DNA from: a virus
Length of the DNA stretch: 30,384 nt
IMG/VR virus record: IMGVR_UViG_3300009285_001146
Location: 1-30,384 of that record
Direction: 5' to 3' (one strand)
In this document: positions 4,914 through 29,730 of the stretch, piece by piece
Numbering within the stretch: the stretch's first letter is position 1
How the letters are laid out: each line of letters begins with the position of its first letter
The notes under the pieces: model-generated
Seen by the model: only the letters and a program-made list of their open reading frames with translations
Databases searched by the model: none
What the model was told of the DNA's origin: nothing
Program-made: the position numbers and the translations under genes

Positions 4914-5375
4914 ATGAAGATTCCTACAAGCTATATTGATGATATTTCAAATATCATTATTGATGTAATAAGGAAGGGCAATAAGATAATGGTTTGTGGT
5001 AATGGGGGATCTTCTTCGCAAAGTTCTCATTTCGTTGCCGAAATGATCGGAAAGTTTAAATATATAAGGCGGGCATTACCTTTCTTGGCGTTGACGACAG
5101 ATACTTCAATTTTAACTTCTATCGGAAATGATATAGGGTTTGAGTATGTATTTTCCCGTCAGGTTGAAGGACTTGGTGCTCGCGGTGATCTGCTTATTGT
5201 TTTGTCAACTTCAGGTCAATCTAAAAATTGTCTAGAGGCAATAAAATCTGCACAAAAAAAAGGGATATTTTATGAAGAGCTAATACGAATCGGAAAAGAT
5301 ACTTCAGAGATTCAGGAAAATCATCTTAAGATGATCCATTTAATTTGTGCTCGCGTTGAGGAGGTTTTTATATGA
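4914..5375 (+). CDS. gmhA: Sedoheptulose-7-phosphate isomerase, GmhA-like (SIS domain)
   Basis: The SIS fold is clear: GNKIMVCGNGGSSSQSSHF, VAEMIGKF, the LTTDTSILTSIGNDIGFEYV motif typical of GmhA, LLIVLSTSGQSKN, and a C-terminal helix with IQENHLKMIHLICARVEE. GmhA turns sedoheptulose 7-phosphate into D-glycero-D-manno-heptose 7-phosphate, the first step of nucleotide-heptose synthesis. At 153 residues it is short for the family (about 190). The N-terminal helix is reduced. The strand region between the EAIKSAQKKG helix and the C-terminal helix is cut from about 26 to about 11 residues. It overlaps the kinase gene by 4 nt. Activity is likely but not certain, because of the shortening. Confidence 0.85.
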   Translation: MKIPTSYIDDISNIIIDVIRKGNKIMVCGNGGSSSQSSHFVAEMIGKFKYIRRALPFLALTTDTSILTSIGNDIGFEYVFSRQVEGLGARGDLLIVLSTSGQSKNCLEAIKSAQKKGIFYEELIRIGKDTSEIQENHLKMIHLICARVEEVFI

Positions 5376-6292
5376 TCTATAAAGCAGAAAGTCCGGTTAG
5401 GATTTCTTTATTTGGCGGATCGACTGATTTTCTATCTTATTCAAATAAATTTGGAGGATTAGTTGTTAATACATCAATTGATTATTACCAGAAGATTAGG
5501 TTATTCACAGGTAATGATAGGACAGCTTTGGAAAATACAAATATGTGGCTACTTGATGATGATAATGAGGAGTTATTTAAAAAGCTATATGAAGTTTATA
5601 ACATAAGGGCAAGCGATGTTAAACTTGAGCATGAATGTGAGGTAAATATAAGATCGGGTTTAGGTTCTTCGGCTGCTTTAATTGTAGCATTTATTAAAGC
5701 TTTATCAAAGCTAAGACATGACCCTGAGAGAAATTCTTTCGATATAGCAAAAGAAGCTTGGAAATTTGAAGTCAACGAGATGGGAATACTTGGCGGTATT
5801 CAGGATCAGCTTGCATCTGCATGGGAGGGTATGAATATATTTGAGATGTCAAAGCGTGGAATTTACAGGATACCAGTAACTAACGGAGTAAGACAGAAAA
5901 TATTAAATTCAATTATTTTAATTTATACGGGGATAAGTAAAAAAAGCTCAACGACACAAAACCATTTCCGTCATCTTGAATCTTCTGAGATTGAGTACCT
6001 GCATAAAATTAAAAAAATAGCTGAAACTGCGGTTAACATTATAGAGTATGGTGACATTGAAAAGCTTGGGTATTTACTTCATGAATCATGGGAATTAAAG
6101 AGTAAATTTAACAAAGTCAGTAATAGTAAAATTGACCGTATATACGCGAGAGTTAAGAAGCTTGGAGTATATGGCGGTAAGCTTTGCGGTTCGGGTGGCG
6201 GGGGGTATATGTTTTTTATGGTGCCGCCTCATAAAAAAGCAGATATTATAGAAAAAATTGAGAATAAATATCAAGTTTTAGAAAATTTATGA
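5372..6292 (+). CDS. hddA: GHMP-family sugar kinase, D-glycero-D-manno-heptose 7-phosphate kinase-like (HddA)
   Basis: All three GHMP motifs are present: PVRISLFGGSTDF near residue 8, the ATP loop NIRSGLGSSAALIV near residue 90, and KLCGSGGGGYMFFM near residue 270. The opening FGGSTDFLSYSNKFGG and the segment MGILGGIQDQLASAWEG match heptose kinases of the HddA type better than galactokinase or mevalonate kinase. HddA phosphorylates heptose 7-phosphate at C1 to the 1,7-bisphosphate. Length (306 residues) is close to the family norm. It sits between isomerase and nucleotidyltransferase with ATGA overlaps on both sides, which supports a coordinated pathway. Confidence 0.85.
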   Translation: MIYKAESPVRISLFGGSTDFLSYSNKFGGLVVNTSIDYYQKIRLFTGNDRTALENTNMWLLDDDNEELFKKLYEVYNIRASDVKLEHECEVNIRSGLGSSAALIVAFIKALSKLRHDPERNSFDIAKEAWKFEVNEMGILGGIQDQLASAWEGMNIFEMSKRGIYRIPVTNGVRQKILNSIILIYTGISKKSSTTQNHFRHLESSEIEYLHKIKKIAETAVNIIEYGDIEKLGYLLHESWELKSKFNKVSNSKIDRIYARVKKLGVYGGKLCGSGGGGYMFFMVPPHKKADIIEKIENKYQVLENL

Positions 6293-6522
6293 AAAAAATA
6301 TTGGATAATTATTATTATTTTATGTATAGATGGACTATTATGCACCCTCTACATTTTTTATTTTATCGTGATGGTCATAAATTTCTATATACAAATCATC
6401 CGAAATTAGATCGTATTTGTTTTTTAATATTGCAATTTATTCATTCATTAGTTGCTGGAAAACCAGTTTATCATATTAAACTGTTATTTCTCAAAGTATT
6501 CAAAAAAAATTTATATATATGA
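6289..6522 (+). CDS. Small aromatic, basic hypothetical protein in the heptose cassette
   Basis: A 77-residue protein rich in Y, F, H and K (MKKILDNYYYFMYRWTIMHP), with a moderately hydrophobic stretch (ICFLILQFIHSLVAG) that could be membrane-associated. It overlaps the kinase and the nucleotidyltransferase by 4 nt each, so it is translated as part of the set. It is more AT-rich than the virion genes. No family recognised. A membrane-recruiting partner for the sugar enzymes is possible but speculative. Confidence 0.55.
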   Translation: MKKILDNYYYFMYRWTIMHPLHFLFYRDGHKFLYTNHPKLDRICFLILQFIHSLVAGKPVYHIKLLFLKVFKKNLYI

Positions 6523-7058
6523 TTACTGCGGTAATACTTGCAGGGGGCTATGGCACACGGCTTAAAAAATTAACAAAGACAATTCCAAAGCCGATGATCG
6601 TAATTGCAGGGAAGCCTGTTATCAGACATATTATAGACAATTTACATATTGCGGGGATTAATCAAATTATAGTTAAGACCCATTATTTACCCGAAGTTAT
6701 CATGAAATATCTAGGTAACTCGGTCATGTATTATTATGAATCTGAACTTTTATCGCATAAAGAGACAATTATTGCGTTACAAGGACAAATAAATGATAAC
6801 TTTTTTGTTATTAATGGTGATACTTTGTCAAATGTTGATTACAGGAAAATGTTAAAAACTCATAAAGAAAATACAATTACTGTACTTATGGATGAGTGGA
6901 GATGTGCGGGTACATGGCTTTATAGTCGGCAATATTTTAAAGATCAATCTATTGCCGTTTATCCATATCGACAAACAGGTTTACTTTGGTTTGATATTGG
7001 AACACCTGAGAGGTTACAGGCGGCTAAAGATTATTATGAAAGATATGAAAAAAACTAA
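6519..7058 (+). CDS. hddC: Sugar nucleotidyltransferase, HddC/RmlA-like
   Basis: The nucleotidyltransferase fold begins with the NTP-binding signature VILAGGYGTRLKKLTKTIPK, followed by PVIRHIIDNL, the metal-binding FVINGDTLSNVD, and the C-terminal FDIGTPERLQAAKDYYERY typical of mannose-1-phosphate/heptose-1-phosphate guanylyltransferases. With GmhA- and HddA-like neighbours, the best reading is transfer of a nucleotide to heptose 1-phosphate, giving GDP-heptose (ADP-heptose is less likely because the kinase/transferase fusion HldE is absent). At 179 residues it is shorter than usual (about 230); sequence between the NGDT strand and the C-terminal motif seems reduced. Confidence 0.8.
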   Translation: MITAVILAGGYGTRLKKLTKTIPKPMIVIAGKPVIRHIIDNLHIAGINQIIVKTHYLPEVIMKYLGNSVMYYYESELLSHKETIIALQGQINDNFFVINGDTLSNVDYRKMLKTHKENTITVLMDEWRCAGTWLYSRQYFKDQSIAVYPYRQTGLLWFDIGTPERLQAAKDYYERYEKN

Positions 7059-7314
7059 TTTAATTATCTGTCCAAACTGTGAATTAAAGCGGGATGCAAA
7101 CGGTCATTCCATACGTCAGATTTTAGGTGAAGTTACAGACCGCGGGGATGTTCTTATATTACGGTTTCACGATGGTTATACTATCGTTTCAGGACAAGAT
7201 TTTAATATACGATGCGGTAAATGTTTGGAGATTGTATATTACAGACGTCAGGATTATGAAAAGATTAGTATTACTCAAGAAGTTAAATGTTTTAATGGAT
7301 CGATGGTGATGTGA
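7045..7314 (+). CDS. Small zinc-ribbon protein
   Basis: An 89-residue protein starting MKKTNLIICPNCELKRDANG and ending just before the late promoter. CPNC near residue 10 and CGKC near residue 55 form a four-cysteine zinc ribbon around a beta-rich core (GDVLILRFHDGYTIVSGQDF). A longer in-frame ORF upstream overlaps the nucleotidyltransferase and is judged a shadow; ATG 7045 (or 7036) overlaps its end by 14-23 nt. Small zinc ribbons in phages often bind RNA polymerase or DNA. Its position immediately before the first late promoter makes a transcription factor worth considering, but this is inference. Confidence 0.65.
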   Translation: MKKTNLIICPNCELKRDANGHSIRQILGEVTDRGDVLILRFHDGYTIVSGQDFNIRCGKCLEIVYYRRQDYEKISITQEVKCFNGSMVM

Positions 7315-7343
7315 TTGACAAGTAGGAAAAATAATAATAAGAT
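7315..7343 (+). promoter_or_regulatory. Late promoter 1 (packaging module)
   Basis: TTGACA at 7315-7320 begins at the base after the zinc-ribbon stop codon. A 17-bp spacer leads to TAAGAT at 7338-7343. The structured leader at 7348-7413 follows. Confidence 0.65.
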
Positions 7344-7347
7344 ATAA

Positions 7348-7405
7348 GCACTCGATAAAAAAACGAGCAAGCGTCATGAATTAGAAGATGCGCCATTACA
7401 GGCGC
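7348..7405 (+). promoter_or_regulatory. Late leader 1: 5'-terminal hairpin, GAAT-AGAAGA box, terminator hairpin
   Basis: CTCG (7351-7354) pairs with CGAG (7364-7367) around a 9-nt loop ATAAAAAAA, starting about 7 nt after the -10, that is at the predicted transcript 5' end. The box ATGAATTAGAAGA (7376-7388) follows, then GCGCC/GGCGC (7390-7405). The same order is found at 15311-15371, 24336-24398 and 28831-28899. GCGTC (7371-7375) could pair with GATGC (7387-7391) instead, competing with the terminator stem. Confidence 0.6.
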
Positions 7406-7413
7406 TTTTTTTT
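7390..7413 (+). terminator. Intrinsic-terminator-like hairpin ending at the terS start codon
   Basis: GCGCC (7390-7394), loop attaca, GGCGC (7401-7405), then eight T residues (7406-7413) and immediately the ATG at 7414. It lies within the transcript from the promoter at 7315-7343, so it should stop that transcript unless readthrough is induced. Confidence 0.7.
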
Positions 7414-7830
7414 ATGGAAAAAAAAGAATTAAAAAATAAACCCTTAGAATTGAAGATAGGGGGTTTGACGCCGTCAAAACAAGCTCTTCAATCATATCTT
7501 CAGAACTTTACATTGGAGGCGATTGATGGAATTGTGGAAATGATGCGAACTTCAAGAAATCCACAACTGAAATTTGCCTCAATGAAAATAATTATCGATA
7601 AATCAATTCCAGATATTAAAGCAATTGAATTAAAAGGAGAAAATGGAGAACCAATCAAACTTACTGTCCTTGCAGGGACAGGTTTTATTCCCGCCCTTGG
7701 AAAGTTTGTTACCACACCAGAGGGAAGTGCTACTACAGGATCCACATCGCTTCAAAATCCTAGTGTGGCACCGCAGGGCGAGAAAAACAACAACGGCAAT
7801 AATGGAGATAGTAAAGCAGGCGCATCTTAA
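7414..7830 (+). CDS. terS: Terminase small-subunit-like protein
   Basis: A 138-residue protein directly upstream of and overlapping the large terminase. Residues about 15-75 are helical (TPSKQALQSYLQNFTLEAID, RNPQLKFASMKIIIDKSIPD), followed by IELKGENGEPIKLTVLAGTGF, a pattern seen in small phage proteins next to TerL. TerS would recognise pac or cos DNA and load TerL. The last 40 residues are low-complexity (TTPEGSATTGSTSLQNPS, then NNNGNNGD) and coincide with the TerL coding frame. The start has no Shine-Dalgarno sequence: the ATG follows a U8 run. The role rests mainly on position. Confidence 0.6.
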   Translation: MEKKELKNKPLELKIGGLTPSKQALQSYLQNFTLEAIDGIVEMMRTSRNPQLKFASMKIIIDKSIPDIKAIELKGENGEPIKLTVLAGTGFIPALGKFVTTPEGSATTGSTSLQNPSVAPQGEKNNNGNNGDSKAGAS

Positions 7831-8971
7831 GCGTGGTGTCTATTGGCATATATTTCCAACTAGCACCGAAGCTAAAGATGCTGTATGGCGGGATCCTGCC
7901 ATGCTCTTTAACATAATTCCAGAAAGCCTCATTGAAAAGAAAAATGAGGTAGAGATGGTGATCTATTTCAAAAATGGCTCAATCATGCAGATTAAGGGAG
8001 CTGATGACCCGGATGCACTGCGAGGAACTGGGCCATGCGGCATAGTTTTGGATGAATTTGCAAAGATGAAATATTACGCATGGGAAGTGGTTGAACCCAT
8101 TATTCGTGCCAATGGCGGATGGGCATGGTTTATAGGAACTCCTAAAGGCAAGAATCATTTATTTAATTTATATCAGCGGGGGAAGGAAGGACATCATGAA
8201 TGGAAGTCATGGCTTTTAAAGGCCAGTCAATCAGGGATCATACCAATGGATCAGCTTTTAGAGTCCAAACGTACATCCACTCAAGCTAATTTTAATCAGG
8301 AATGGGAATGTGAATTTTTAGAAGGTGAGGGTTCGGTTTTCAGAGGAGTACGAAATATTTGTACAGCAATACCTGAAAAACCAGAAGGTACACACATGTA
8401 TGTGATGGGAGTTGATCTAGCCAAAGTGCAGGATTACACCGTAGTTTCAGTTTATGACAGATCGACAAACGGTCAGGTATATCAGGACAGGTTTAAGACT
8501 TTAGAATGGCCTTTTCAGAAGAAAAAGATAAAGGCTATATCAGATCATTATAACCATGCGTTAACAATAATTGACGCAACGGGAATAGGAGACCCCATAG
8601 CAGATGATCTAATCCGAGCGGGAGTACCAATCGTAAGTTACAAGATAACAGAGCAAAGTAAAAAGGATCTGATTGAAAAGCTATCAATATGGGTAGATCA
8701 AGGTTTATTTAAGATGCTTGCCATACAGGAAACATTATTTGAATTTGATAATTTTACATACGAAATAGGATCAACGGGGCGAATCAGATACGGAGCGCCG
8801 GTTGGATTTCATGACGATATTGTAATTTCACAAGCACTTGCAATATGGTCATTACAGCCAATCAGTAAGGTCCAGTTAGCAGTTCCTAAAACTAGGATAC
8901 AAAGATTTTATGAGTCGGCAAAAGAAGCTATCCGTCAAGAAGATAACGAATGGGGATGGGAGCAAGTATAA
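7643..8971 (+). CDS. terL: Terminase large subunit
   Basis: A full-length TerL of 442 residues. ATPase: LLPHQREVLLQDPHRFKILV leads to Walker A VWHRRARKTT (residues 41-50; the usual glycine before lysine is replaced by arginine), Walker B with catalytic acid in GPCGIVLDEFAKM, and coupling motif FIGTPKG. Nuclease: MGVDLAKVQDYTVVSVYD, TIIDATGIGDPIADDLI and FHDDIVISQALA supply the RNase H-like acidic residues. It packages DNA into proheads at the portal vertex. Start ATG 7643 follows AAAGGAGA closely, and Walker A lies inside the 188 nt shared with TerS in another frame, so a later start is not possible without losing it. Confidence 0.93.
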   Translation: MENQSNLLSLQGQVLFPPLESLLPHQREVLLQDPHRFKILVWHRRARKTTTAIMEIVKQAHLKRGVYWHIFPTSTEAKDAVWRDPAMLFNIIPESLIEKKNEVEMVIYFKNGSIMQIKGADDPDALRGTGPCGIVLDEFAKMKYYAWEVVEPIIRANGGWAWFIGTPKGKNHLFNLYQRGKEGHHEWKSWLLKASQSGIIPMDQLLESKRTSTQANFNQEWECEFLEGEGSVFRGVRNICTAIPEKPEGTHMYVMGVDLAKVQDYTVVSVYDRSTNGQVYQDRFKTLEWPFQKKKIKAISDHYNHALTIIDATGIGDPIADDLIRAGVPIVSYKITEQSKKDLIEKLSIWVDQGLFKMLAIQETLFEFDNFTYEIGSTGRIRYGAPVGFHDDIVISQALAIWSLQPISKVQLAVPKTRIQRFYESAKEAIRQEDNEWGWEQV

Positions 8972-12741: not shown

Positions 12742-14001
12742 ATGACACAAGACGCGATACAAGACCAGAATACCGTACATGCCCTTCTTATTCATTCGGG
12801 AACAGCAGGGACAGCAGAAACCATACGGGCAACAGGGCAGGCAAATGGTGCCCAGAATATCCATGTAACTGGGGGAACAGTAGTATCAAGTGCCAGTCTT
12901 GAATTAAACTCAGGAACAATAACAACCATTCAAAATGGTACTCAACAAACTTTAGGAACAGTTGGAGTATTAAACGCCGGCTCTGTGGTTGTAACGAATG
13001 GTACAGTTGTTGCAAGTGCTGGTAGCATTGTTCAGACGGCAGGTACTCTAACGACAGGGTCACTTACTGATGTTGCGACACTTGGCACTATTTTAAATCT
13101 AAACAAAGGAACAATTACCCGTATTGAAGGTGGATCAGTTGTCGTGACCATAGGTACAGTGAATGTAAATACAGGAACAATCGTACAAGCATCAGGTACT
13201 TTAACTACCGGATCACTTACTAATCTTGCAACAGTAGGAACAATTCTTAATGTAGATAAAGGGACAATTACACGGGTAGAGGGTGGATCGATGGTGCAAA
13301 CTGCAGGGACAGTAACACTTCTTGAGGCAGGGACGGTAACTGCTATTAATAATATAGTGAAAGGAACAATCACTCGGGTTGAAGGCGGATCAGTAGTTGT
13401 GACTATAGGAACCGTAAATGTAACAACTGGGTCAATAGTGCAGACTGCAGGTACCATGACAACAGGTTCTCTTACAAATGTAGCAACTCTTGGCACCATA
13501 TTAAATGTAGATAAAGGGACTATAACAAGCGTTCAGGCAGGGACAATCAGTAATCTCGCCTCAGGATCGGTTGTCGTGACTCTGGGTACAGCAATCGTAA
13601 GTACAGGAACCCTTGCTGCGCTAGCTGCAGGGACAATTACTGCAGGGACTGTACGTCAGCAATGGCAACCGGTTAATCAGGTGACTTCATTTGGAACACG
13701 TGCTACTGCTGCAGGGTCGGCATTTGGGACTATATCTGCTGCATCAGGCGCAGGGACAAAACATATCGTATCTGGAATATCAATCGTTGTTGAATCGGGA
13801 ACTACCGATGTTCGGGTATTATACGGAACAGAAATTATCGGAGGATCGGTGCTTGCTGCCGGTAAATTTGTACCATCTGCCGGAATAGCCCGTGATTTTA
13901 GTCCTTCTGTAGAGTCGGGAGCAAATAGCGAAATAACCTATCATTTTGTTGGTGCTGGGACAGCATATATAACAGTCCAGTACTGGAAAAGCTTATTATA
14001 A
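12742..14001 (+). CDS. Repetitive Thr/Gly/Val virion protein, fibre or decoration type
   Basis: A 419-residue protein dominated by short T-G-T and G-S-V-V-V repeats up to about residue 305. A 51-residue repeat is visible: TLTTGSLTDVATLGTILNLN starts at residue 102 and recurs at 153 and 238, with GTITRIEGGSVVVTIGTVNV and variants inside; the middle copy carries extra 11- and 23-residue units. Regular beta-strand/turn spacing predicts a beta-solenoid or trimeric fibre shaft. The last 120 residues differ (VSGISIVVESGTTDVRVLYG, ending AYITVQYW) and look like a folded beta domain. No signal peptide. Position among virion genes supports a surface fibre or head decoration. Confidence 0.7.
   Translation: MTQDAIQDQNTVHALLIHSGTAGTAETIRATGQANGAQNIHVTGGTVVSSASLELNSGTITTIQNGTQQTLGTVGVLNAGSVVVTNGTVVASAGSIVQTAGTLTTGSLTDVATLGTILNLNKGTITRIEGGSVVVTIGTVNVNTGTIVQASGTLTTGSLTNLATVGTILNVDKGTITRVEGGSMVQTAGTVTLLEAGTVTAINNIVKGTITRVEGGSVVVTIGTVNVTTGSIVQTAGTMTTGSLTNVATLGTILNVDKGTITSVQAGTISNLASGSVVVTLGTAIVSTGTLAALAAGTITAGTVRQQWQPVNQVTSFGTRATAAGSAFGTISAASGAGTKHIVSGISIVVESGTTDVRVLYGTEIIGGSVLAAGKFVPSAGIARDFSPSVESGANSEITYHFVGAGTAYITVQYWKSLL
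13045..13605 (+). repeat. In-frame repeats (153-nt unit) inside the fibre-like gene
   Basis: Unit 1 covers 13045-13197 (51 codons). Unit 2 starts at 13198 and is expanded to 85 codons. Unit 3 starts at 13453 and fades near 13605. Copies agree better in protein than in DNA, since many differences are synonymous, so the repeat is old and kept by selection. Confidence 0.7.
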
Positions 14002-15276: not shown

Positions 15277-15304
15277 TTGACAAATAAAAATCTTCCTATA
15301 TATT
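15277..15304 (+). promoter_or_regulatory. Late promoter 2 (scaffold/coat module)
   Basis: TTGACA (15277-15282), 16-bp spacer, TATATT (15299-15304). It begins three bases after the LamG gene ends and drives a structured leader. Confidence 0.65.
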
Positions 15305-15310
15305 CCTTAA

Positions 15311-15371
15311 GTAGAGGGATAAAAAAGCCCTCCCTACATCGGACAAACTAGAAGGTCGCGAATTACGCGAC
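15311..15371 (+). promoter_or_regulatory. Late leader 2: 5'-terminal hairpin, AGAAG box, terminator hairpin
   Basis: GTAG-AGGG (15311-15318) pairs with CCCT-CC-CTAC (15328-15337, two-base bulge) around a 9-nt loop ATAAAAAAG. It starts 6 nt after the -10. CTAGAAGG (15348-15355) precedes the hairpin GTCGCG/CGCGAC (15355-15371). This is the second copy of the architecture at 7348-7405, with a different stem sequence but the same fold. Confidence 0.6.
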
Positions 15372-15379
15372 TTTTTTTT
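15355..15379 (+). terminator. Intrinsic terminator ahead of scaffold/coat genes
   Basis: GTCGCG (15355-15360), loop aatta, CGCGAC (15366-15371), eight T residues (15372-15379), then ATG at 15380. CTTTTTTTTATGGAAAAAA is shared exactly with 7405-7423. Confidence 0.75.
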
Positions 15380-15435: not shown

Positions 15436-16146
15436 ATGCCAGATGAATTTTTTAATAAAACAGAAACAGAGACGGAAACAAAAACTGAAACTGTAGAAAA
15501 AGTAAAGGTCGGAAGTGATGAATACACACAAGATGAACTTTCAAAACTCGTTGGTCTTGGAAAGATAGGGGTTGAAGCCGAACAGAAGTTTAATACCAAG
15601 CTTGACAGGGTCTGGCCCGAGTTTGTCAAATCAAGCCAGGAAAAGGCTGAACTTAATGCGAAGGTAAAGGAGTTTGAAGGAAAAATTAAAGATATGGAGA
15701 CTAAAAAGAGTCCCGCTTTAAATTCTTTAACTTCAGAGCAAAAAGAACAGGCAAAAAAAGAGCTTTACGAACTTATGGGAGGGGAACCTATGACTGAGAA
15801 GCAATTTGAAGTCAAATATGTCCAAAGAAGGAATGCAGAACGGCTTGTCGAGGACACAGAAAGCGTTTTACTCGAGATGAAAGAGCAGGGAATGCCACAA
15901 ACAACTGTCGAGGATGTGTTAAAGCACATGGCAGATACAGGCATTAGGGTTCCTCAAAAAGCCTATAAGGATATGTTTGAAGCTGAAATTGACAAGATCA
16001 AAGAGGAAAAACTAAAGAGTTTAAGGCCAAGTGGCGGATATGAGACAGTTCAAGTCCAATCGCCGGGTAACAAACAGCCTGCGCTAAAGAAAGTTACGAA
16101 AGAGAATTTAGCCGAAATGCTAAATGCCAGAATTAATAGGGTATAA
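15436..16146 (+). CDS. Scaffolding-like protein
   Basis: A 236-residue, highly charged, helical protein immediately upstream of the coat gene, the standard place for a scaffold. It opens with a KTETETETKTETVEKVKV low-complexity tract, continues with DELSKLVGLGKIGVEAEQKF and a coiled coil (SSQEKAELNAKVKEFEGKIK), and ends with a basic helix (KKVTKENLAEMLNARINRV) where coat-binding elements usually lie. A scaffold would assemble with the coat into the prohead and then leave. AAGGGGGTG upstream gives a strong ribosome site. Confidence 0.75.
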   Translation: MPDEFFNKTETETETKTETVEKVKVGSDEYTQDELSKLVGLGKIGVEAEQKFNTKLDRVWPEFVKSSQEKAELNAKVKEFEGKIKDMETKKSPALNSLTSEQKEQAKKELYELMGGEPMTEKQFEVKYVQRRNAERLVEDTESVLLEMKEQGMPQTTVEDVLKHMADTGIRVPQKAYKDMFEAEIDKIKEEKLKSLRPSGGYETVQVQSPGNKQPALKKVTKENLAEMLNARINRV

Positions 16147-16187: not shown

Positions 16188-17432
16188 ATGACAATGCTTT
16201 TAAGTAATTATACTGCTGCTTTGAAAGAGGTTGTTATGCCTTTCTTGCAAAACAATTTCCCATCAGAGACAATCCTTCTTGATAACTTCAAGAAAAATGT
16301 GGACTATCAATTCATAAATGATGAATTTATAGCACCAGTTTGGACTTCTCGACACGGTGGAATTGCCAATCTTGCAAATGACGGCAATAATGTGGTATCA
16401 GCGTCAGGTCGGACAAGTTCTCGTGCGACAGTACCTGTTGAAACAGTTACAGGCGCTTTCAATATCTCGAGACTTGCAATTGAAGCTTCAGCAACAAGCA
16501 AAGGCGCAGTTGCGGCAGCGCTTACTTCTCAATCACAGACCCTATCTTCCGATTTTGCGAGACATATAAATCGCCAGATCTATGGAGATGGAGTTGGTGT
16601 TGTAGCAGAAACGATAGGATCTTCAAGTGCGACTAATATCGAACTTGCATATCCGACAGCTTCTCTTGATGATGGACGGTCAGTTGACTGGTATGGAACG
16701 GTAAATGGAGACATTTCACCTACTAAATACCTGGCAGTTGATCAGATTCTTGGTTTTGGTACAGGTGGTGCAGATTTAGGTACAGTGACCGCCGTTAATG
16801 GTGGTACATCAGTAACTGTTACCGGGAATCCCGCATGGGCCACAAATGATTCCGTGTACATAATGGACGGATCAGGACAAGGCGCAGGAACAAGTGAATT
16901 TTTGGGTATCCGAGCTGCTCTTTCTTCAAGTACCGGTACTTCAACGTATGCAGGTCTTGCAAGAAATACGACAGGATGGACACCACAGTTTGGTTCAGCA
17001 CTTGAGGCACTAACTCAGGATAGAATTGATGATTCTTATCTTTCTGCCCGTGAGTATGCCCGTGGATCTGACAAGTTTATTATTCTTGTTAATAAGTCGC
17101 TCTATAAAAAGTACGGAAAAATCCTTACTTCTATGAGAAGGACTGTTAATGAGACGAAGTTACTTGGTGGATTTACAGGTCTTGAATACGCTGCAGGTGG
17201 TGGAGTCATAGGCGTTTTTGTTGACTATGATGTTCCAGATGGTGAGGTTCTTATAATTGATTTAGATTCATGGAAGTTATGCCAAGTCCGTGATCTTGAT
17301 TGGTTAGAGTCCGGTGGCGAGTTATTGCGACTTCAAAACACAATTACATATCAGGCCGTTATGGTTTGGTTTGCGAATGTGATGACAGTTGCACCCGCTG
17401 CAAATGGACGACAGACACAGAAACAGGATTAG
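16188..17432 (+). CDS. Major capsid (coat) protein
   Basis: A 414-residue protein following the scaffold, with the strongest ribosome-site context. The N-terminus (NYTAALKEVVMPFLQNNFPS, then ILLDNFKKN) is the N-arm pattern of podovirus/HK97-fold coats. VETVTGAFNISRLAIEASAT, SDFARHINRQIYGDGVG and SARYARGSD-like SAREYARGSDKFIILVNKSL follow as the spine helix and P domain. The C-terminus (LRLQNTITYQAVMVWFANVM) is a typical final A-domain strand and helix. A Gly/Thr-rich insertion (about residues 185-240, with TVTAVNGGTSVTVTGNPAW) resembles a Big2/Ig-like inserted domain of some coat proteins. Confidence 0.82.
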   Translation: MTMLLSNYTAALKEVVMPFLQNNFPSETILLDNFKKNVDYQFINDEFIAPVWTSRHGGIANLANDGNNVVSASGRTSSRATVPVETVTGAFNISRLAIEASATSKGAVAAALTSQSQTLSSDFARHINRQIYGDGVGVVAETIGSSSATNIELAYPTASLDDGRSVDWYGTVNGDISPTKYLAVDQILGFGTGGADLGTVTAVNGGTSVTVTGNPAWATNDSVYIMDGSGQGAGTSEFLGIRAALSSSTGTSTYAGLARNTTGWTPQFGSALEALTQDRIDDSYLSAREYARGSDKFIILVNKSLYKKYGKILTSMRRTVNETKLLGGFTGLEYAAGGGVIGVFVDYDVPDGEVLIIDLDSWKLCQVRDLDWLESGGELLRLQNTITYQAVMVWFANVMTVAPAANGRQTQKQD

Positions 17433-18956: not shown

Positions 18957-19247
18957 ATGAAAATAACACCTACTCGTGGAAACTGCTTAATAGAACTTAT
19001 TGAAACTCAAGAAACATCTGCTTCAGGTCTTATAATTCCTGATGAAGTCAAGTCGCGACAAGCTAAAGGGAAAGTTATAGAAATAGGTTCCCCAGAATAT
19101 TTAGGTGATGGTGTATATGATCTAAAATCACTGGTTGATAAAGGTGATATTGTCTGGTTTAAACAGTTCGCAGGTGAACCGATACGTGAAGAAGGCAAAA
19201 AATATCTCATAGTCCCTTACAAAGAAATACTGGCCGTGATTAAATAA
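18957..19247 (+). CDS. groES: Co-chaperonin GroES
   Basis: A 96-residue full-length GroES: MKITPTRGNCLIELIETQET at the start, mobile loop around TSASGLIIPDEVKSRQAKGK, VIEIGSPEYL, the GDIVWFKQFAGEPI strand pair and the terminal YLIVPYKEILAVIK. GroES caps GroEL rings to form the folding cage. The mobile-loop hydrophobic tripeptide (LII) that contacts GroEL is present. The start has no Shine-Dalgarno sequence; it follows a U6 run, and the predicted 5' leader is only about 20-25 nt. Located 30 nt upstream of groEL. Confidence 0.93.
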   Translation: MKITPTRGNCLIELIETQETSASGLIIPDEVKSRQAKGKVIEIGSPEYLGDGVYDLKSLVDKGDIVWFKQFAGEPIREEGKKYLIVPYKEILAVIK

Positions 19248-19251
19248 TGAC

Positions 19252-19280
19252 CATAGAGTACCATAATGACGTGCTCTATG
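19252..19280 (+). promoter_or_regulatory. Hairpin that includes the groEL start codon
   Basis: CATAGAG (19252-19258) is the exact reverse complement of CTCTATG (19274-19280), whose last three bases are the groEL ATG. The 15-nt loop also contains an in-frame upstream ATG (19266). Such a stem would make groEL translation depend on unfolding, for instance by ribosomes finishing groES. Confidence 0.5.
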
Positions 19281-20834
19281 AAAAAAGCCAAAGATATAAT
19301 CTTTGATGCTAAGGTACGGGAAAAATTACTTCGTGGCATTTCAATTACAGCGCAGGCCGTGGCTTCAACTCTTGGGCCACGAGGCCGTAATGTTGCCATA
19401 AATAATCCATTTTCAACTCCCGAGGTCTATCACGATGGAGTAACTGTAGCCCGTCAAATCAATCTAAAAGATCCATTCGAGGATATGGGGGCAGAACTTC
19501 TTAAGTCTGCAGCAATTAAAACGAATGAACGGGCGGGTGATGGTACAACTACGGCAACAATACTTGCTGAGGCTATAATTACTCAAGCTTTTAAGATGAT
19601 CGGAGAGGGTGTAAACCCAATGGTACTTAAAGGTCAAATTGAGAGCGAGATGAAAATAGTCCTTGAAGAACTTAAAAAACTTACTAAAAATATAGAGACA
19701 AACGAGGAAATTGAACAGATAGCAACAATTTCTTCAACTGATCCCGTTATAGGTCGGATGGTAAGTCAAGCTATTAAGACTGTCGGCAAACATGGAACAA
19801 TTACAGTTGATAACGGTCGGGAAGTAAATACAAAGGTAATTTATAAAGAAGGATTTGAATTTGACCGTGGATATATCTCTCCTTACTTTGTAACGGACAA
19901 AGATACAGTTGAAGCAGTAGTAGATGATCCATACATCTTGATAACTGACAGGTCTATCCGATATGGCTATGAGATCGTGCCTTTCTTAGACCGCTTTATA
20001 AAGGAAACTAAATCAAAAAACCTAGTCATTATAGCGGGCGAGGTCTCAGATGAGGCGCTTGCTACCCTAGTTGTCAATAAACTTAAAGGTCTTATAAATG
20101 TAGTCGCGGTAACTGCTCCAGCATACGGAGGACGGCGTATTGATGAGATTGAGGATATAGCGGTGTTTACTGGTGGGCAAGTAATTATTGCAGATAGCGG
20201 AACTGACATTCAGGGAGTTCAAATTGAACAATTGGGACGGGCTGAAGCAGTAAAGGTAGACCGTGATAAAACCATAATATTTGGGGGAAAAGGAAATAAG
20301 GAAGCTATTTCCTCATATACCAATAACTTAAAGGAACAAATAAAAATATCAAATACTGATTTTGACCGAGATATTAAGTCAAATAGACTTGCAACATTAT
20401 CGGGTAAAGTAGCAATTATCGAGGTAGGTGCGCATTCTGAGGTTGAGATGAAAGAGAAAAAAGAACGTATTCTGGACGCCGTACATGCTACACAGGCCGC
20501 GATAGATGAAGGCATTGTAGCTGGGGGCGAGATAACACTATTAAGACTTGCAACTAAGGTGAAAGGAATACTTAATCAAGCATTCAAAGCTCCATTTAAG
20601 CGCCTCATGGAAAATGCAGGTTATGACTATACTGACAAAATGATTGAACTATCGGGGAAAGATTACCCCTATGGCATTGACATGCTTGACGGGAAAGTTA
20701 AGGATATGATAGCAAGCGGAATTATTGATCCAGCTAGAGTCACAAGATCAGCTATAGAAAATGCCGTATCAATAGCAGGAATGATTGTATCAACAAATGT
20801 CATGATTACAGATATTGAAGAAGAAAAGATATGA
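19278..20834 (+). CDS. groEL: Chaperonin GroEL
   Basis: A 518-residue GroEL with all landmarks: STLGPRGRNVAINN, HDGVTVARQI (D53), AGDGTTTATILAEAI (D88), apical RGYISPYFVTDKDTVEA, NVVAVTAPAYGGRRIDEIED, hinge and ATP residues in ILDAVHATQAAIDEGIVAGG, and IIDPARVTRSAIENAVSIAG near the end. ATPase aspartates are conserved. One glycine of the usual AGGG triplet is glutamate, and the C-terminal GGM tail is absent; it ends DIEEEKI. ATG 19278 gives the standard MKKAKDI start. It overlaps the next gene by 4 nt. It would fold phage virion proteins with the adjacent GroES. Confidence 0.95.
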   Translation: MKKAKDIIFDAKVREKLLRGISITAQAVASTLGPRGRNVAINNPFSTPEVYHDGVTVARQINLKDPFEDMGAELLKSAAIKTNERAGDGTTTATILAEAIITQAFKMIGEGVNPMVLKGQIESEMKIVLEELKKLTKNIETNEEIEQIATISSTDPVIGRMVSQAIKTVGKHGTITVDNGREVNTKVIYKEGFEFDRGYISPYFVTDKDTVEAVVDDPYILITDRSIRYGYEIVPFLDRFIKETKSKNLVIIAGEVSDEALATLVVNKLKGLINVVAVTAPAYGGRRIDEIEDIAVFTGGQVIIADSGTDIQGVQIEQLGRAEAVKVDRDKTIIFGGKGNKEAISSYTNNLKEQIKISNTDFDRDIKSNRLATLSGKVAIIEVGAHSEVEMKEKKERILDAVHATQAAIDEGIVAGGEITLLRLATKVKGILNQAFKAPFKRLMENAGYDYTDKMIELSGKDYPYGIDMLDGKVKDMIASGIIDPARVTRSAIENAVSIAGMIVSTNVMITDIEEEKI

Positions 20835-21370
20835 AAAAGTGCTTCTTTACTATTGTAGCCGATAAAACCTCAGATGATCTTAAAAGACAAGAAGACTCTG
20901 TAAATAAATTCTATAATGATATTGATTTTGTCACATTTGAAACAAAAGATATAAACTTCACGGGTGATAAGATGATTGAGAAAAGATCTATTCCTCCTAT
21001 TTTAAATGTCTTATTTAATAAAGGTTACGAGTTTTTAATTAAACTCCCAGAAGGCGCGGTAATGACAAAACCAATCTCTGACATAATGAGTGAAGAATTT
21101 GACATGACCGTATTTCCCATGAAAACTGCGGAAGAAATTAAGAAAGAGCCATATTCGGTATGGTTTATAGATCCTGCCGAATACTTTGATACCTCATTTT
21201 TTATGATAAAAAATAAGGAGATGGCCGCACAATGGATGAACCTTTGTTATAAACCTTTTTTTACTAATTACAAAAATGGGCAGCGGGATATATTAAATAT
21301 TTTAATTCATTTTGGAAATTATAAGGTTAAGATGTTTCCTAAAGAGGAGATTAGTAAATACTTTGTATGA
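20831..21370 (+). CDS. Degenerate GT-A glycosyltransferase-like paralogue lacking DxD
   Basis: A 179-residue protein similar in plan to the glycosyltransferase at 21680-22444: both open with a beta strand (KKCFFTIVADK versus GKTLFFTTAFN) and share the C-terminal pattern W-x-x-L-C, then QRDILNILIHFGNYKVKMF versus EQDFLNILIHYFPYKTKFL. Where the paralogue has RLDTDQI, this one has KLPEGAV, so the metal-binding DxD is lost. It is also 75 residues shorter, missing the C-terminal acceptor region. It may be a catalytically dead partner or specificity subunit. Its ATGA overlaps with groEL and with the HAD gene imply coupled expression. Confidence 0.6.
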   Translation: MKKCFFTIVADKTSDDLKRQEDSVNKFYNDIDFVTFETKDINFTGDKMIEKRSIPPILNVLFNKGYEFLIKLPEGAVMTKPISDIMSEEFDMTVFPMKTAEEIKKEPYSVWFIDPAEYFDTSFFMIKNKEMAAQWMNLCYKPFFTNYKNGQRDILNILIHFGNYKVKMFPKEEISKYFV

Positions 21371-21678
21371 ATAAAACAATTAGCATTGATTGCGATGGTG
21401 TGTTACATAAGTTTTCAAAGGGCTGGTATGACGGTTCAATGTATGATACGGCGGTAGAAGGCGCAGTACATGAGGTAAACCATCTTATCGAAAAAGGATA
21501 TAAGATTGTGGTTTGTACGGCACGGGATAATCTGAAAGATGTTGAAAAATGGATGCTTGATCAGGGATTTGATGTAAGTGAGATTAAAGTTACTAATAAA
21601 AAGCCAAAAGCTATCGCGTATATTGACAACCGAGGAATAAGGTTTACCAATTGGCGCGATATAGCAATGTATTTCTAA
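21367..21678 (+). CDS. HAD-superfamily phosphatase
   Basis: A 103-residue minimal HAD protein. Motif I is SIDCDGVLH with nucleophile D8 and acid D10. Motif II/III region: IVVCTARDNLKDVEKWMLDQ, the CTAR signature of the PNKP-like phage group. KKPKAIAYIDNRGIRF supplies the lysine and terminal aspartate. There is no cap domain. Substrates of this group include nucleotide 3'-phosphates and sugar phosphates. Because the window has a heptose pathway without a recognisable GmhB phosphatase, removal of the 7-phosphate is a possible role, but the sequence is not GmhB-like. Confidence 0.8.
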   Translation: MNKTISIDCDGVLHKFSKGWYDGSMYDTAVEGAVHEVNHLIEKGYKIVVCTARDNLKDVEKWMLDQGFDVSEIKVTNKKPKAIAYIDNRGIRFTNWRDIAMYF

Positions 21679-21679
21679 T

Positions 21680-22444
21680 ATGGGAAAAACACTTTTTTTT
21701 ACAACTGCCTTTAATCCTCAAAACATTGAGCTTGCCCGCAATATGGTTAACTCCTTCCATAAGTTTCACCCAAATACTGAGGTAAAAGTATTTACACAAG
21801 AAGACCTACCTAATTTTCTGCCCGTGCCGGGTTACGAGTGGAACTTTAGGATTACACCACTCTTTGCCGTACGGCTTCTACAAGAGTATGATACTGTAGT
21901 ACGATTGGACACGGATCAGATCATAACAGGTAATCTCGATCATATATTAGAGGGAGATTATGATGTTGCGGTAGTTCAAAACTCAAATCCGAGGGATTAC
22001 ATGCTTCACTACAGAAAGACGGGACAGATGTTGACTGCGGTAGATATACCTTATCTTGATTATGTAAACTGTGGATTTGTTGTCATAAAAAATCTGAAGT
22101 TTGCACAACACTGGTTTGGACTTTGTAACTCTAAATACTTTCCATTCTTCCAGTTTCGGGAACAGGATTTTTTAAATATCTTAATTCATTACTTTCCTTA
22201 TAAGACTAAATTTTTAGATAAATCAAATAAATGGCACGGGCTGATAAGTAAGGGATTTTGGCCACAGATAGAGCTAAAAGACGATAAATTAATATTGCCT
22301 AAAAATGATGAATGGCCGAAAGACGAATCAAAGGAAATTGTTTGTCTTCATGTAGCAGGTGGTGGTAGTGTCTCAAAATTTCATGACTTGAATATTAGAT
22401 TTAAGCCCGAAGTGATTAATCATTTAAAAGGACTTATTAAATGA
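21680..22444 (+). CDS. GT8-like glycosyltransferase (GT-A fold)
   Basis: A 254-residue glycosyltransferase. It opens with TLFFTTAFNPQNIELARNMV (nucleotide-binding first strand), has the metal-binding DxD in VVRLDTDQIITGNLDHIL (D77, D79), VNCGFVVIKNLKFAQHW and a C-terminal HVAGGGSVSKFHD, the H-x-G-type metal ligand of GT8 enzymes. It probably transfers a sugar from a nucleotide donor; acceptor unknown. It is followed by an HNH gene whose start overlaps its stop (ATGA). With the paralogue and the GT-B enzyme downstream it forms a glycosylation block. Confidence 0.75.
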   Translation: MGKTLFFTTAFNPQNIELARNMVNSFHKFHPNTEVKVFTQEDLPNFLPVPGYEWNFRITPLFAVRLLQEYDTVVRLDTDQIITGNLDHILEGDYDVAVVQNSNPRDYMLHYRKTGQMLTAVDIPYLDYVNCGFVVIKNLKFAQHWFGLCNSKYFPFFQFREQDFLNILIHYFPYKTKFLDKSNKWHGLISKGFWPQIELKDDKLILPKNDEWPKDESKEIVCLHVAGGGSVSKFHDLNIRFKPEVINHLKGLIK

Positions 22445-23091: not shown

Positions 23092-23163
23092 TAAAGACCG
23101 CCGCTTGAGAACAATCTGGAGCTCGAACGGCTATTGGTAGCCCTGCGGGGCACCAATATTTTT
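23085..23163 (+). ncRNA. Three consecutive hairpins after the HNH gene, unknown structured RNA
   Basis: GGTCT-AATAA-AGACC (23085-23099, containing the HNH stop), then GCCG...CGGC (23100-23131) with an inner TTGAG/CTC-AA pairing, then TTGGT-A-GCCC-TGCG-GGGC-ACCAA (23134-23156) followed by TATTTTT. The last could be a terminator. The cluster is GC-richer than its surroundings and lies exactly where the glycosyltransferase coding frame is interrupted, which suggests the 3' end of an intron or other inserted element. I could not find a group I or group II core. Confidence 0.4.
23134..23163 (+). terminator. Terminator-like hairpin ahead of the interrupted glycosyltransferase
   Basis: A nine-pair stem (TTGGT/ACCAA plus GCCC/GGGC, one bulged A) with tetraloop TGCG and a T-rich tail (23157-23163). 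It is the most GC-rich hairpin in the window. Confidence 0.5.
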
Positions 23164-23315
23164 AAAGAACAAGATCAGGATACGCTAATGAACAACTTTA
23201 TCTACTTGATAGATTAGATAAAGACGGTTGGCCTATAGCTCAAATTGCCTTCTGGGGACTTGAAGGACAGCCTATACATACAAAAGAGCATCCTAATATC
23301 AAGGTCTATCCTAAA
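23164..23315 (+). other. 5' coding remnant of the GT-B glycosyltransferase, without start codon
   Basis: In the frame of the gene starting at 23316, the sequence is open from 23166 and reads RTRSGYANEQLYLLDRLDKD, then GWPIAQIAFWGLEGQ and IKVYPK. SGYANEQ and FWGLEGQ match the N-terminal nucleotide-fold segment of GT4 enzymes. No ATG, GTG or TTG starts this frame, and a TAA (23163-23165) closes it upstream. About 12-15 codons (the first beta strand and start) are missing, so the gene is interrupted or truncated here. Confidence 0.7.
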
Positions 23316-24344
23316 ATGGCAGACGGCTTTGGTTCAGACGCTCTAGTACATCAAGCCCGTGACTTTAAGGCTGACGCCGTCCTCACCATGCACGACATCT
23401 GGACTATAAATCCAACATTCTTACCACAGATCAAAAACTTCATTCCTTATGTACCAATTGATAAAGAGCCTGTACCCTTGTCTATTCTTGAAAGACTCGA
23501 ATATGCTTATAAGATAATTACCTTTTCCCGCTTTGGACAAAAGGCATTGGAGCGTGCAGGATTTGCCTCGACTTTGATAGTTGAGGGGATAGACGTAAAC
23601 CTGTTTACACAGATGGATAAAATGGCTGTAAGACGCGAACTGGGATTACCGCAAAACGCATTCATATTCGGGATGATTGCGGCAAATAAAGAAAATCCGC
23701 CGAGGAAAGGTTGGCAGGAGGCTCTCGAGGCTTTTGCCCTATTTTATAAGAATCATCCTGAAGCTATGTTATTTTTAAGAATCCAACAGCAGACACCTTC
23801 TGGGTTTCCCATTTTAGGGTATGCCCGCTATCTTGATATTGCACACAGGCTTATATTTGTTGAAGAATATGAGGCGGTGTATGGATCGGATATAACAAAA
23901 ATAGTAAAGGAAATGAATGCTATTGATGTACTGCTTCATCCCTCACAAACTGAAGGGTTTGGGCTGACAGTAGTTGAGGCACAAGCCTGTGGTACTCCTG
24001 TACTTGTCAACGACTGTACGTCGATGCCTGAACTTATAATTGACGGTGTTACAGGTGAGAAAAGTAGGGTTGCAAGTCGTAGATTTTCAAATGATTTAGG
24101 ATATGTATATGTAGCAAATCCAAACTCTATAGCCGAGAAAATGGAAATACTTTATAAACGTATTAAAGAGGACAAAGAGGGTAAGATTGCCAAGGCGTGT
24201 AGGGAAAATATTGTTAAAAATTATAACATTGATACAATATTCAAAGAGCAATGGGTAAAATTTTATGAAACTTTACAAGATGAATTGTTGCCTATTGTTG
24301 ACACTCAAAAAAAAAGTGATACTATAAAAACTGTAGTAGGATGA
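23316..24344 (+). CDS. GT4-type (GT-B) glycosyltransferase, 5'-truncated
   Basis: From ATG 23316 this is 342 residues. The donor domain is complete: FIFGMIAANKENPPRKGWQE, LIFVEEYEAVYG, VLLHPSQTEGFGLTVVEAQA and CGTPVLVNDCTSMPE contain the E-x7-E signature of GT4 retaining glycosyltransferases. The acceptor domain lacks its first part, though clear homologous coding continues upstream to 23166 without a start codon. An enzyme made from 23316 would lack the first Rossmann strands and probably be inactive. Splicing, translational bypass or loss of function are the options. The late promoter for the tail module lies in its last codons. Confidence 0.8.
   Translation: MADGFGSDALVHQARDFKADAVLTMHDIWTINPTFLPQIKNFIPYVPIDKEPVPLSILERLEYAYKIITFSRFGQKALERAGFASTLIVEGIDVNLFTQMDKMAVRRELGLPQNAFIFGMIAANKENPPRKGWQEALEAFALFYKNHPEAMLFLRIQQQTPSGFPILGYARYLDIAHRLIFVEEYEAVYGSDITKIVKEMNAIDVLLHPSQTEGFGLTVVEAQACGTPVLVNDCTSMPELIIDGVTGEKSRVASRRFSNDLGYVYVANPNSIAEKMEILYKRIKEDKEGKIAKACRENIVKNYNIDTIFKEQWVKFYETLQDELLPIVDTQKKSDTIKTVVG
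24298..24325 (+). promoter_or_regulatory. Late promoter 3 (tail module)
   Basis: TTGACA (24298-24303) with TACTAT (24320-24325) after 16 bp; the spacer holds a run of nine A. It lies inside the 3' end of the glycosyltransferase gene and precedes the third structured leader. Confidence 0.55.
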
Positions 24345-24398
24345 CAAGGCCTACCAAGTAGCGTGAATACAAGAAGACCTACCTGTTATCGGGTAGGT
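24336..24398 (+). promoter_or_regulatory. Late leader 3: 5'-terminal hairpin, GTGAAT-AGAAGA box, terminator hairpin
   Basis: GTAGG (24336-24340), 9-nt loop ATGACAAGG, CCTAC (24350-24354); box GTGAATACAAGAAGA (24363-24377); ACCTACC (24377-24383) and GGTAGGT (24392-24398). The upstream GTAGG can also pair with the terminator's left arm, giving a textbook choice between antiterminator and terminator. Confidence 0.6.
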
Positions 24399-24404
24399 TT
24401 TTTT
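24377..24404 (+). terminator. Intrinsic terminator ahead of the tail module
   Basis: ACCTACC/GGTAGGT (7 bp, 8-nt loop) and seven T residues (24398-24404). An ATG follows at 24406, but the true gene start is 24429, with TGGAGGTG at 24411-24418 as ribosome site. Confidence 0.75.
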
Positions 24405-24428: not shown

Positions 24429-24725
24429 ATGGAGCCACAATACAGAAACGGAGATTTTAAAACAGTATTAGGCGGTACGGCAAGTGCGGTACAACAATCG
24501 CATGATGGCGTATTACAACGGATTTTAGTTGGTGGTACATTTGTCGGTACCATTGCATTTTATGACTCGGCAACTATCGCAGGGACAACAGCTACAAATG
24601 AGGTTTGGTCATTTGGCAATCCAACAACCACATTTCCACAAGCATATGAGATAGGTGCAAATCTTAGATCAGGGCTTGTATACACAGCAACAGGAACACC
24701 AGTATTAACATTTATTTATAGTTAA
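24429..24725 (+). CDS. Small virion protein, probably high-copy
   Basis: A 98-residue Gly/Thr-rich protein (GDFKTVLGGTASAVQQSHDG, VLQRILVGGTFVGTIAFYDS, GLVYTATGTPVLTFIY). It has the regular strand pattern of a small beta barrel, as in head-decoration or fibre-base proteins. A dedicated late promoter and a strong GGAGGTG ribosome site suggest many copies. No family name can be given with certainty. Confidence 0.6.
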   Translation: MEPQYRNGDFKTVLGGTASAVQQSHDGVLQRILVGGTFVGTIAFYDSATIAGTTATNEVWSFGNPTTTFPQAYEIGANLRSGLVYTATGTPVLTFIYS

Positions 24726-28793: not shown

Positions 28794-28822
28794 TTGACAA
28801 ATAGTACAATAGGTATTATCAT
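28794..28822 (+). promoter_or_regulatory. Late promoter 4 (ejection-protein module)
   Basis: TTGACA (28794-28799), 17-bp spacer, TATCAT (28817-28822), beginning six bases after the fibre stop. Confidence 0.7.
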
Positions 28823-28830
28823 CAAACTAT

Positions 28831-28899
28831 CAGCACAAAATGGGCTGACACTTCGTGTGAATTTAAAGAAGACGCGATAACATATATCTTTAATTCACA
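28831..28899 (+). promoter_or_regulatory. Late leader 4: same hairpin and box, long stem in place of terminator
   Basis: CAGC (28831-28834), 9-nt loop ACAAAATGG, GCTG (28844-28847); box GTGAATTTAAAGAAGA (28857-28872). The second structure is a long stem (28856-28869 with 28887-28899, one bulged T) that covers the box and ends five bases before the ATG at 28905. There is no T-run, so this copy may act on translation. Confidence 0.55.
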
Positions 28900-28904
28900 T
28901 AAAT

Positions 28905-29729
28905 ATGGATCCAAACGCGGTTTCAGACTTACGAAATGTACGGGCACAGGGAGCTTCAACAGGCGATATACGTGATTTTGGTGGCGTAAAATGGAGATGG
29001 TCTGGTGAGTCTTGGCAACAGGAGCCACGTCACATGCAGTCAAGTTCATGGCAATCTCAAAATATAGATCCTGCGGAGGAAAGACAAAAACAACTTGAGT
29101 TTGCTCAACGCCTTCAGGAACAACAGGTGGCACAAAGAAAAACAATTAATGCTCCTATAGCACAATCTATAAAACAGGGCATTCCAACACTCCAATCTCG
29201 GTATAAGCAAATACTTTCGGATTTATCAACCCGTGAAAGTGAGGAAGCACAAACAACAACCCTAAATACAGCGACTGAATATTCTAAAAGAGGAATTCCC
29301 TTGTCGTCGGGAGCTTATAATGTTGGACTCGAACAAAAAATACAACCACAGCGTAGGTATTATTCAGGACAACGCTCCAGTGTTGGAATTTCAGAGCAGG
29401 AACAGATAGATCAGTTAAACCAGGTAATTGCCACGCTTGAGGCGGGATCTCCAGACACCTCTATTCCACAGGCTCTATCGTTATATAGCGGGATAACGGG
29501 AAATGTCAACCAGATGCAAAATCAGGCACAGCAATCTAGTTATCAGCAACAATCACTGGCTCAAGCCATGGAGATAGCTAAGATGCAGAATCAACCACAA
29601 TCCTCGTATCGTGATCCTATTTCTGTTGGAGCAAATAGTGACTTATACGATCCTAATTCTGGTCAATGGATAACCCGTCAGGGAATACAAAATCAGTTCG
29701 GTGGTGGTCGTTATCAAATTGTCGGATAA
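28905..29729 (+). CDS. Q/S-rich internal virion (ejection-like) protein
   Basis: A 274-residue hydrophilic, helical protein with very many glutamines (QQEPRHMQSSSWQSQNIDPA, RQKQLEFAQRLQEQQVAQRK, QQSSYQQQSLAQAMEIAKMQ). N-terminal DPNAVSDLRNVRAQGASTGD and an aromatic WRWSGESWQ precede long coiled helices (TLQSRYKQILSDLSTRESEE). Podovirus ejection proteins lie at the end of the tail module and have this composition. No peptidoglycan-cleaving domain is seen. It has its own promoter and a structured leader. Confidence 0.6.
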   Translation: MDPNAVSDLRNVRAQGASTGDIRDFGGVKWRWSGESWQQEPRHMQSSSWQSQNIDPAEERQKQLEFAQRLQEQQVAQRKTINAPIAQSIKQGIPTLQSRYKQILSDLSTRESEEAQTTTLNTATEYSKRGIPLSSGAYNVGLEQKIQPQRRYYSGQRSSVGISEQEQIDQLNQVIATLEAGSPDTSIPQALSLYSGITGNVNQMQNQAQQSSYQQQSLAQAMEIAKMQNQPQSSYRDPISVGANSDLYDPNSGQWITRQGIQNQFGGGRYQIVG

Positions 29730-29730
29730 T

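Follow-up and report, generated by a model that had tools for sequence, protein, structure and literature searches.

Four copies of a promoter-leader module stand in the window, by which we mean the whole analysed stretch of DNA, a virus record of 30,384 bases, and all four belong to an RNA family that is conserved among uncultured tailed phages related to this one. Behind its promoter each leader can form a first hairpin (P1), a second one (P2) and a competing third one (P3), the latter an intrinsic terminator in copies 1-3. Each module is probably a regulated transcription attenuator heading a block of late genes.

The source phage and its relatives

Judged by its gene content the window derives from a podovirus-like temperate phage, as backed by genes for an integrase, an ERF recombinase, a Terminase_6-type large subunit, a P22-like portal and an SU10-like capsid protein. 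A near relative of the first 25 kb was not found among 50,697 phage records. Relatives were gathered via searches with the large terminase subunit (TerL), the portal and the capsid protein; their proteins are mostly 40-68% identical, and many of their contigs are fragments. A host search across 84,980 genomes yielded no portal or TerL relative. The portal was without match in INPHARED, and such TerL and capsid matches as were found were remote.

Several further features of the window were recorded. Two regions (4914-7058 and 20831-24344) hold putative sugar genes (phosphoheptose isomerase-like, heptose kinase-like, nucleotidyltransferase, glycosyltransferases), and the sets of the relatives additionally hold transketolase-like halves. 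Read from the sequence, these genes suggest a remodelled host surface polysaccharide. A pair of GroES-like and GroEL-like (Cpn60) genes lies within the virion genes (18957-20834) and was present in 8-9 of 18 compared contigs. At the end of the window (29701-30384) the last open frame appears to fuse the start of a virion-region protein to a C-terminal fragment of a histidyl-tRNA synthetase; at this contig edge a chimeric assembly or flanking host DNA is the probable source.

Architecture of the modules

A preliminary description of this DNA had claimed that four places share a TTGACA promoter, P1, an AGAAG-type box and a second hairpin, and all of these parts were found at all four (Table 1). 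The exact TTGACA -35 box is followed 16-17 nt downstream by a -10 hexamer that begins with TA and ends in T. P1 consists of a 4-5 bp stem starting 7-10 nt past the -10 hexamer and, as had been described, a 9-nt loop beginning with A. The second hairpin had been regarded as an intrinsic terminator in three copies, in agreement with the T-run present in copies 1-3 and absent from copy 4. The box had to be revised. Its AGAAG part is present, but the fixed spacing of three bases in the proposed RTGAATnnnAGAAGA sequence does not hold, as the distance is actually 1-4 nt. Moreover, AGAAG is not a free linear box: it lies in the loop of P2, a hairpin overlooked in that description, which competes with the terminator.

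Table 1. Coordinates of the four module copies in the window and of the adjoining genes.
Feature	Position	Strand	Details
Candidate regulator gene	7045..7314	+	small zinc-ribbon protein (CPNC...CGKC); stop codon abuts copy 1 -35
Copy 1 promoter	7315..7343	+	-35 TTGACA 7315-7320, -10 TAAGAT 7338-7343; promoter scan
Copy 1 P1	7351..7367	+	CTCG-ATAAAAAAA-CGAG
Copy 1 P2 (antiterminator)	7371..7393	+	GCGTCAT / ATGCGC, loop GAATTAGAAG 7378-7387
Copy 1 P3 (terminator)	7390..7413	+	GCGCC-ATTACA-GGCGC + T-run
Gene after copy 1	7414..7830	+	terminase small subunit by position, ahead of terL 7643-8971
Copy 2 promoter	15277..15304	+	TTGACA / TATATT
Copy 2 P1	15314..15332	+	GAGGG-ATAAAAAAG-CCCTC
Copy 2 P2	15339..15361	+	TCGGAC / GTCGCGA, loop AAACTAGAAG 15345-15354
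Copy 2 P3 (terminator)	15355..15379	+	GTCGCG-AATTA-CGCGAC + T-run
Gene after copy 2	15436..16146	+	scaffold by position, ahead of major capsid protein 16188-17432
Copy 3 promoter	24298..24325	+	TTGACA / TACTAT
Copy 3 P1	24336..24354	+	GTAGG-ATGACAAGG-CCTAC
Copy 3 P2	24358..24382	+	GTAGCGT / ACCTAC, loop GAATACAAGAAG 24365-24376
Copy 3 P3 (terminator)	24377..24404	+	hairpin ACCTACC...GGGTAGGT + T-run
Gene after copy 3	24429..24725	+	family 24, small virion-region protein
Copy 4 promoter	28794..28822	+	TTGACA / TATCAT
Copy 4 P1	28830..28848	+	TCAGC-ACAAAATGG-GCTGA
Copy 4 P2	28854..28876	+	CGTGT / ACGCG, loop GAATTTAAAGAAG 28859-28871
Copy 4 competing hairpin	28856..28899	+	TGTGAATTTAAAGA / TCTTTAATTCACA, without T-run, 5 nt before ATG at 28905
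Gene after copy 4	28905..29729	+	family 10

Distribution of the module

Intergenic regions of the relatives contain the same module with other stem sequences. A search of 87 loci with the seed architecture, in which sites were picked by requiring the P1 stem, gave 21 distinct sites, all 21 on the coding strand, and none in three shuffles. As these first scans required the P1 stem, an unbiased scan was run on 78 non-redundant contigs (1.37 Mb), searching for a sigma-70-type promoter followed by an intrinsic terminator within about 125 nt, with P1, loop and box left out of the criteria. This yielded 49 sites on the coding (+) strand, compared to 5 on the - strand and 2.3 in shuffles. The preliminary description had proposed a covariance model search, and it had named missing homologous leaders or missing covariation as evidence against the idea. 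A model built from the 21 copies found homologous leaders, and covariation was present as well (below): the 96 sources searched yielded 60 matches, of which 59 lie on the coding strand; those above about 20 bits were mostly convincing and lower ones mixed, with rough E-values. Several copies are present in most genomes, and whole contigs typically carry 3-5.

The Rfam 15 covariance models gave no match at the modules up to an E-value of 10, and 120 kb of sequence from relatives yielded none that reached the gathering threshold. In an exact-pattern scan of all IMG/VR contigs true modules were confined to this phage group. Outside it, nearly all matches to the pattern had no P1 stem, and the one with a weak stem was without the remaining layout, so that the matches outside the group look like chance. 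A comparable phage attenuator was not found in the literature.

The hairpin at the transcript 5' end

Among the 43 class-I modules TTGACA is exact in 40, and the -10 hexamer has the form TAnnnT. P1 starts 6-8 nt past the -10 hexamer in 40 of these 43, mostly with a stem of 4-6 bp; the RNA is therefore expected to begin at P1 or one base before. The loop comprises 9 nt in 29 modules and 7 nt in 10. Its consensus is A-Y-A-A-W-A-Y-R-G, with A at position 1 in 28/29, A at position 4 in 29/29 and G at position 9 in 26/29, and CA follows P1 in 34/43 modules.

P1 at the transcript 5' end is kept through compensatory change, in accordance with the earlier statement that the fold is preserved while the stem sequences differ. 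In the 21 seed copies all 84 of 84 cells of the four inner pairs were paired without a single G-U pair, and the pairs vary freely on both sides. The covariation score for these 21 seeds, which were chosen by their P1 stem, was 1.015, compared to 0.196 for shuffled and at most 0.138 for slid sequences. At the unbiased sites 29 of 49 leaders had, starting at +1, a hairpin of Watson-Crick pairs only whose loop measures 7 or 9 nt; shuffling the leaders gave an expectation of 2.4 and never more than 8 over 200 rounds, and 2-5 were counted at other offsets.

Conflict between P2 and the terminator

The AGAAG box forms the 3' half of the P2 loop (GAAnnAGAAG type), which is about 8-13 nt long and closed by about 3-7 bp. 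The arms of P2 covary across modules. P2 was not used in the choice of sites, and its duplex energy was -5.44 compared to -3.08 (sd 0.37; 0/5000); on the 43 modules the values were -5.06 and -3.17 (z -7.4; 0/20000). For the unbiased set z was -3.6, and a matching downstream control gave -0.5.

In 38 of 42 modules the 3' arm of P2 shares at least 2 nt with the 5' arm of P3, and the box lies within the P2 loop in 37. Because the 3' arm of P2 doubles as the 5' arm of P3, the two hairpins are mutually exclusive. The module thereby has the anatomy of a terminator/antiterminator attenuator. P3 is more stable than P2 in 40 of 43 modules (means -11.2 and -3.5 kcal/mol, respectively). In folding predictions on RNA prefixes of growing length, all six leaders tried formed P1, next P2 with the box in its loop, and last a competing hairpin displacing an earlier one. 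The displaced hairpin was P2, but in L053 it was P1.

A reading of AGAAG as a mere Shine-Dalgarno sequence was dropped, since the box is kept where a separate ribosome-binding site sits downstream, e.g. in copies 2 and 3.

Variant designs

In L053 and L061 the terminator pairs with the 3' arm of P1 and bears P2 on its tip. As it uses the arm of P1, the conserved feature is a conflict with the P1-P2 pair. Class II modules consist of P2 and P3 without P1 (L010, L020, L045, L046, L078, L105 and L006), G018 and L054 have a P1 with a short loop, and the module is absent from a few relatives. P1 is thus dispensable, some relatives holding P2/P3 alone and a few no module. The portal tree shows the classes in scattered positions; designs therefore seem to switch often.

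The competing hairpin of copy 4 is long and A/U-rich. Since it has no T-run and ends 5 nt before the start codon, this copy may act on translation or be decaying. Unlike copy 4, family-10 homologues (e.g. G011, G019, G020 and G025) have a T-run at this position. In L062, L065, L067 and L069 the region 5' of the scaffold gene has a box resembling a promoter (TTGACT or TTGACC) and the hairpin GAGG-TGTTAAT-CCTC but lacks a terminator; the module may have decayed here or may act on translation.

A second promoter-hairpin-terminator element, distinct from the module of the window, was seen in G027 (oriented, 32828), G008 (11119) and L086 (2410). Between the loops of its first hairpin and of its terminator hairpin about 7-9 nt are complementary, e.g. 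ATCCGAGA / TCTCGGAT; the complementary letters suggest a kissing interaction.

Downstream genes and a candidate regulator

The modules are always co-oriented with the late genes and directly upstream of them. Across the relatives they precede the same genes, i.e. those for the small terminase subunit (terS), the scaffold and the families 24, 10 and 2 (numbers from our own clustering), so that the idea of a repeated module ahead of the late genes was borne out. The protein encoded at 12742-14001 of the window, like the family-2 proteins of the relatives, is a virion-region protein built of many short GT-rich repeats (GTVxx/GTIxx type).

Directly in front of copy 1 lies a gene for a small zinc-ribbon protein of roughly 65 residues. 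It is present in most contigs covering this region and in the relatives stands upstream of the terS module; it was not found in L078, a phage with P2 only. The proteins comprise 55-90 residues with the pattern LxxCPxCExxG...LGExxxxGxxxxxRFHxGxTxI...CGxCGExxYxK. Comparison with Pfam, PHROGs and PDB sequences gave no significant match, Zn_ribbon_Com matching 3 of 21 members weakly (best E 0.054), and a scan of IMG/VR with one zinc-ribbon sequence returned its own contigs only. An AlphaFold model is mostly beta (pLDDT 80) and had no confident fold or PDB match; among the structural alignments listed the best were to Mis18/Yippee-type domains (Z 3.3), too weak to be accepted as fold relatives. The zinc-ribbon subtype tends to track the P1 class (3-4 of 5 independent pairs concordant, p 0.125-0.25), a sample too small for a firm association.

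Domains of known antitermination factors were searched for, too. The ANTAR domain PF03861 was found in none of 34 phage contigs, though the host might encode an ANTAR protein of its own. The NusG-like domain PF02357 (RfaH/LoaP-type antitermination), the CAT RNA-binding domain PF03123 (BglG/SacY type) and the Q families PF06530 and PF03589 were each found in none of 16 contigs, the contigs of the Q search being partial.

Proposed mechanism and alternative explanations

For a terminator inside its own transcript regulated readthrough makes the simplest sense, we infer, and likewise that a factor is required. A strong sigma-70-type promoter would start the RNA at the base of P1, and P1 and next P2 would fold while the RNA emerges. 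The 3' arm of P2 would be the stretch that later forms the 5' arm of the terminator P3. Unaided, the stronger P3 would by default displace P2, and the transcript would stop after about 60-75 nt. A trans-acting factor on the P1 and P2 loops, suggested as its binding sites because they are conserved, would hold the weak P2 and prevent P3, so that polymerase enters the virion genes. One factor acting on several copies could activate the blocks for packaging, capsid and tail at the same time. As this factor we tentatively suggest the zinc-ribbon protein of the phage itself, whose gene lies immediately before the first module. More doubtful still is that, by reading both the P2 loop and the 5'-terminal hairpin of every late transcript, it opens several attenuators at a time.

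Alternatively P1 and P2 might bind RNA polymerase and confer terminator resistance in cis without a phage protein, as HK022 put RNA does (PMC9378689). A phage transcript that opens with two hairpins and then runs into a terminator would fit, as would the search for known phage-encoded antiterminators, which found none in the contigs covered. We nevertheless regard this as unlikely: put has no need of a weak P2 overlapping a strong terminator, a terminator would serve no purpose behind a constitutive element, and stems of 4-7 bp with P1 and P2 spanning about 45 nt differ from two long stem-loops over 73 nt. It is also conceivable that promoter DNA and a promoter-proximal pause load a phage protein of the Q kind, with the hairpins incidental, given a late promoter and a terminator ahead of late genes and a candidate regulator gene that abuts the first promoter, in the manner of Q ahead of pR' in lambda. 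As DNA loading leaves the covarying RNA pairing of P1 and P2 unexplained and the contigs searched gave no Q family match, we think this highly improbable.

The strong promoter, the RNA of 60-75 nt and the terminator are also what a repeated small-RNA gene would have, the short terminated RNA being the product and the downstream genes, some with a separate ribosome-binding site after the module, using other promoters. We give very little credit to this explanation, for which the P2/P3 conflict would be useless and the constant, co-oriented position directly 5' of the same late genes unexpected. Hardly any weight falls on a metabolite-sensing riboswitch reporting the cell state to the late genes either: the conserved loops are aptamer-like and the terminator/antiterminator pair resembles an expression platform, but two short open-loop hairpins provide no larger core, several copies stand solely ahead of virion genes, and Rfam gave no match at the modules. 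The regulated attenuator thus remains our preferred reading.

Significance and comparison with known systems

Neither attenuation by terminator/antiterminator pairs nor the dual-hairpin antiterminator is new as a kind of control, and known phage antitermination uses N, Q or P7-type proteins or put RNA. To our knowledge, attenuators repeated before several virion blocks have not been described as late-gene control. New are the RNA family, its loops, P1 at the transcript start and the repeated use before the late blocks of one phage. Within a deep group of uncultured phages the element occurs commonly and has a strong covariation signature; it could mark late operons in metagenomic phages. It would also point to one defined protein as a candidate for RNA binding and might yield a compact transcription switch gated by a protein. 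If the zinc-ribbon protein is the trigger, phage antitermination would gain a new class of regulon besides N-/Q-type proteins and put. With P1, without P1 and with the conflict shifted from P2 to P1, attenuator designs turn over rapidly under one layout.

The likeness to lambda tR'/Q or HK022 put proposed in the preliminary description found no support in detail, the anatomy being that of an attenuator with exclusive hairpins and short stems, and no Q-type protein having been found in the contigs searched. In lambda the Q gene precedes pR'. As with Q and pR'-tR', a late promoter and a terminator stand ahead of late genes, and a regulator gene, here a candidate, adjoins the first late promoter in the window. 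Unlike there, several promoters each have their own terminator, and the RNA is structured and covarying. RAT elements of the BglG/SacY type have an antiterminator hairpin that shares sequence with the terminator's 5' arm and depends on a protein for its stability; RAT has one bulged hairpin, whereas the modules have two hairpins.

HK022 put RNA (73 nt) forms two long stem-loops in a V shape, binds polymerase and acts protein-free on distant terminators (PMC9378689). Its effect is processive and runs through the zinc-binding domain of beta'. It shares with the modules that it is a phage RNA with two stem-loops near the promoter and that terminator readthrough is at issue, but the short weak hairpins of the modules overlap the terminator itself. 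Com of phage Mu, a small zinc-finger protein, binds RNA to control a phage gene (PMC6483171). It is an analogue of the candidate regulator only, both being small, phage-encoded and zinc-ribbon-like, with RNA binding known for Com.

By our analysis the topology appears closest not to put but to the target RNAs of ANTAR proteins, e.g. of eut in Enterococcus faecalis, which are dual-hairpin antiterminators (PMC3369931). Both have two small tandem hairpins with conserved loop residues and an antiterminator that excludes an intrinsic terminator. ANTAR targets have two hexaloops with A1 and G4, the modules a P1 loop of 9 or 7 nt and a P2 loop of about 8-13 nt, and the modules differ further by P1 at the transcript 5' end and by their place before phage late genes. 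In ANTAR systems one factor controls several leaders, and the scheme proposed here for the modules would work likewise.
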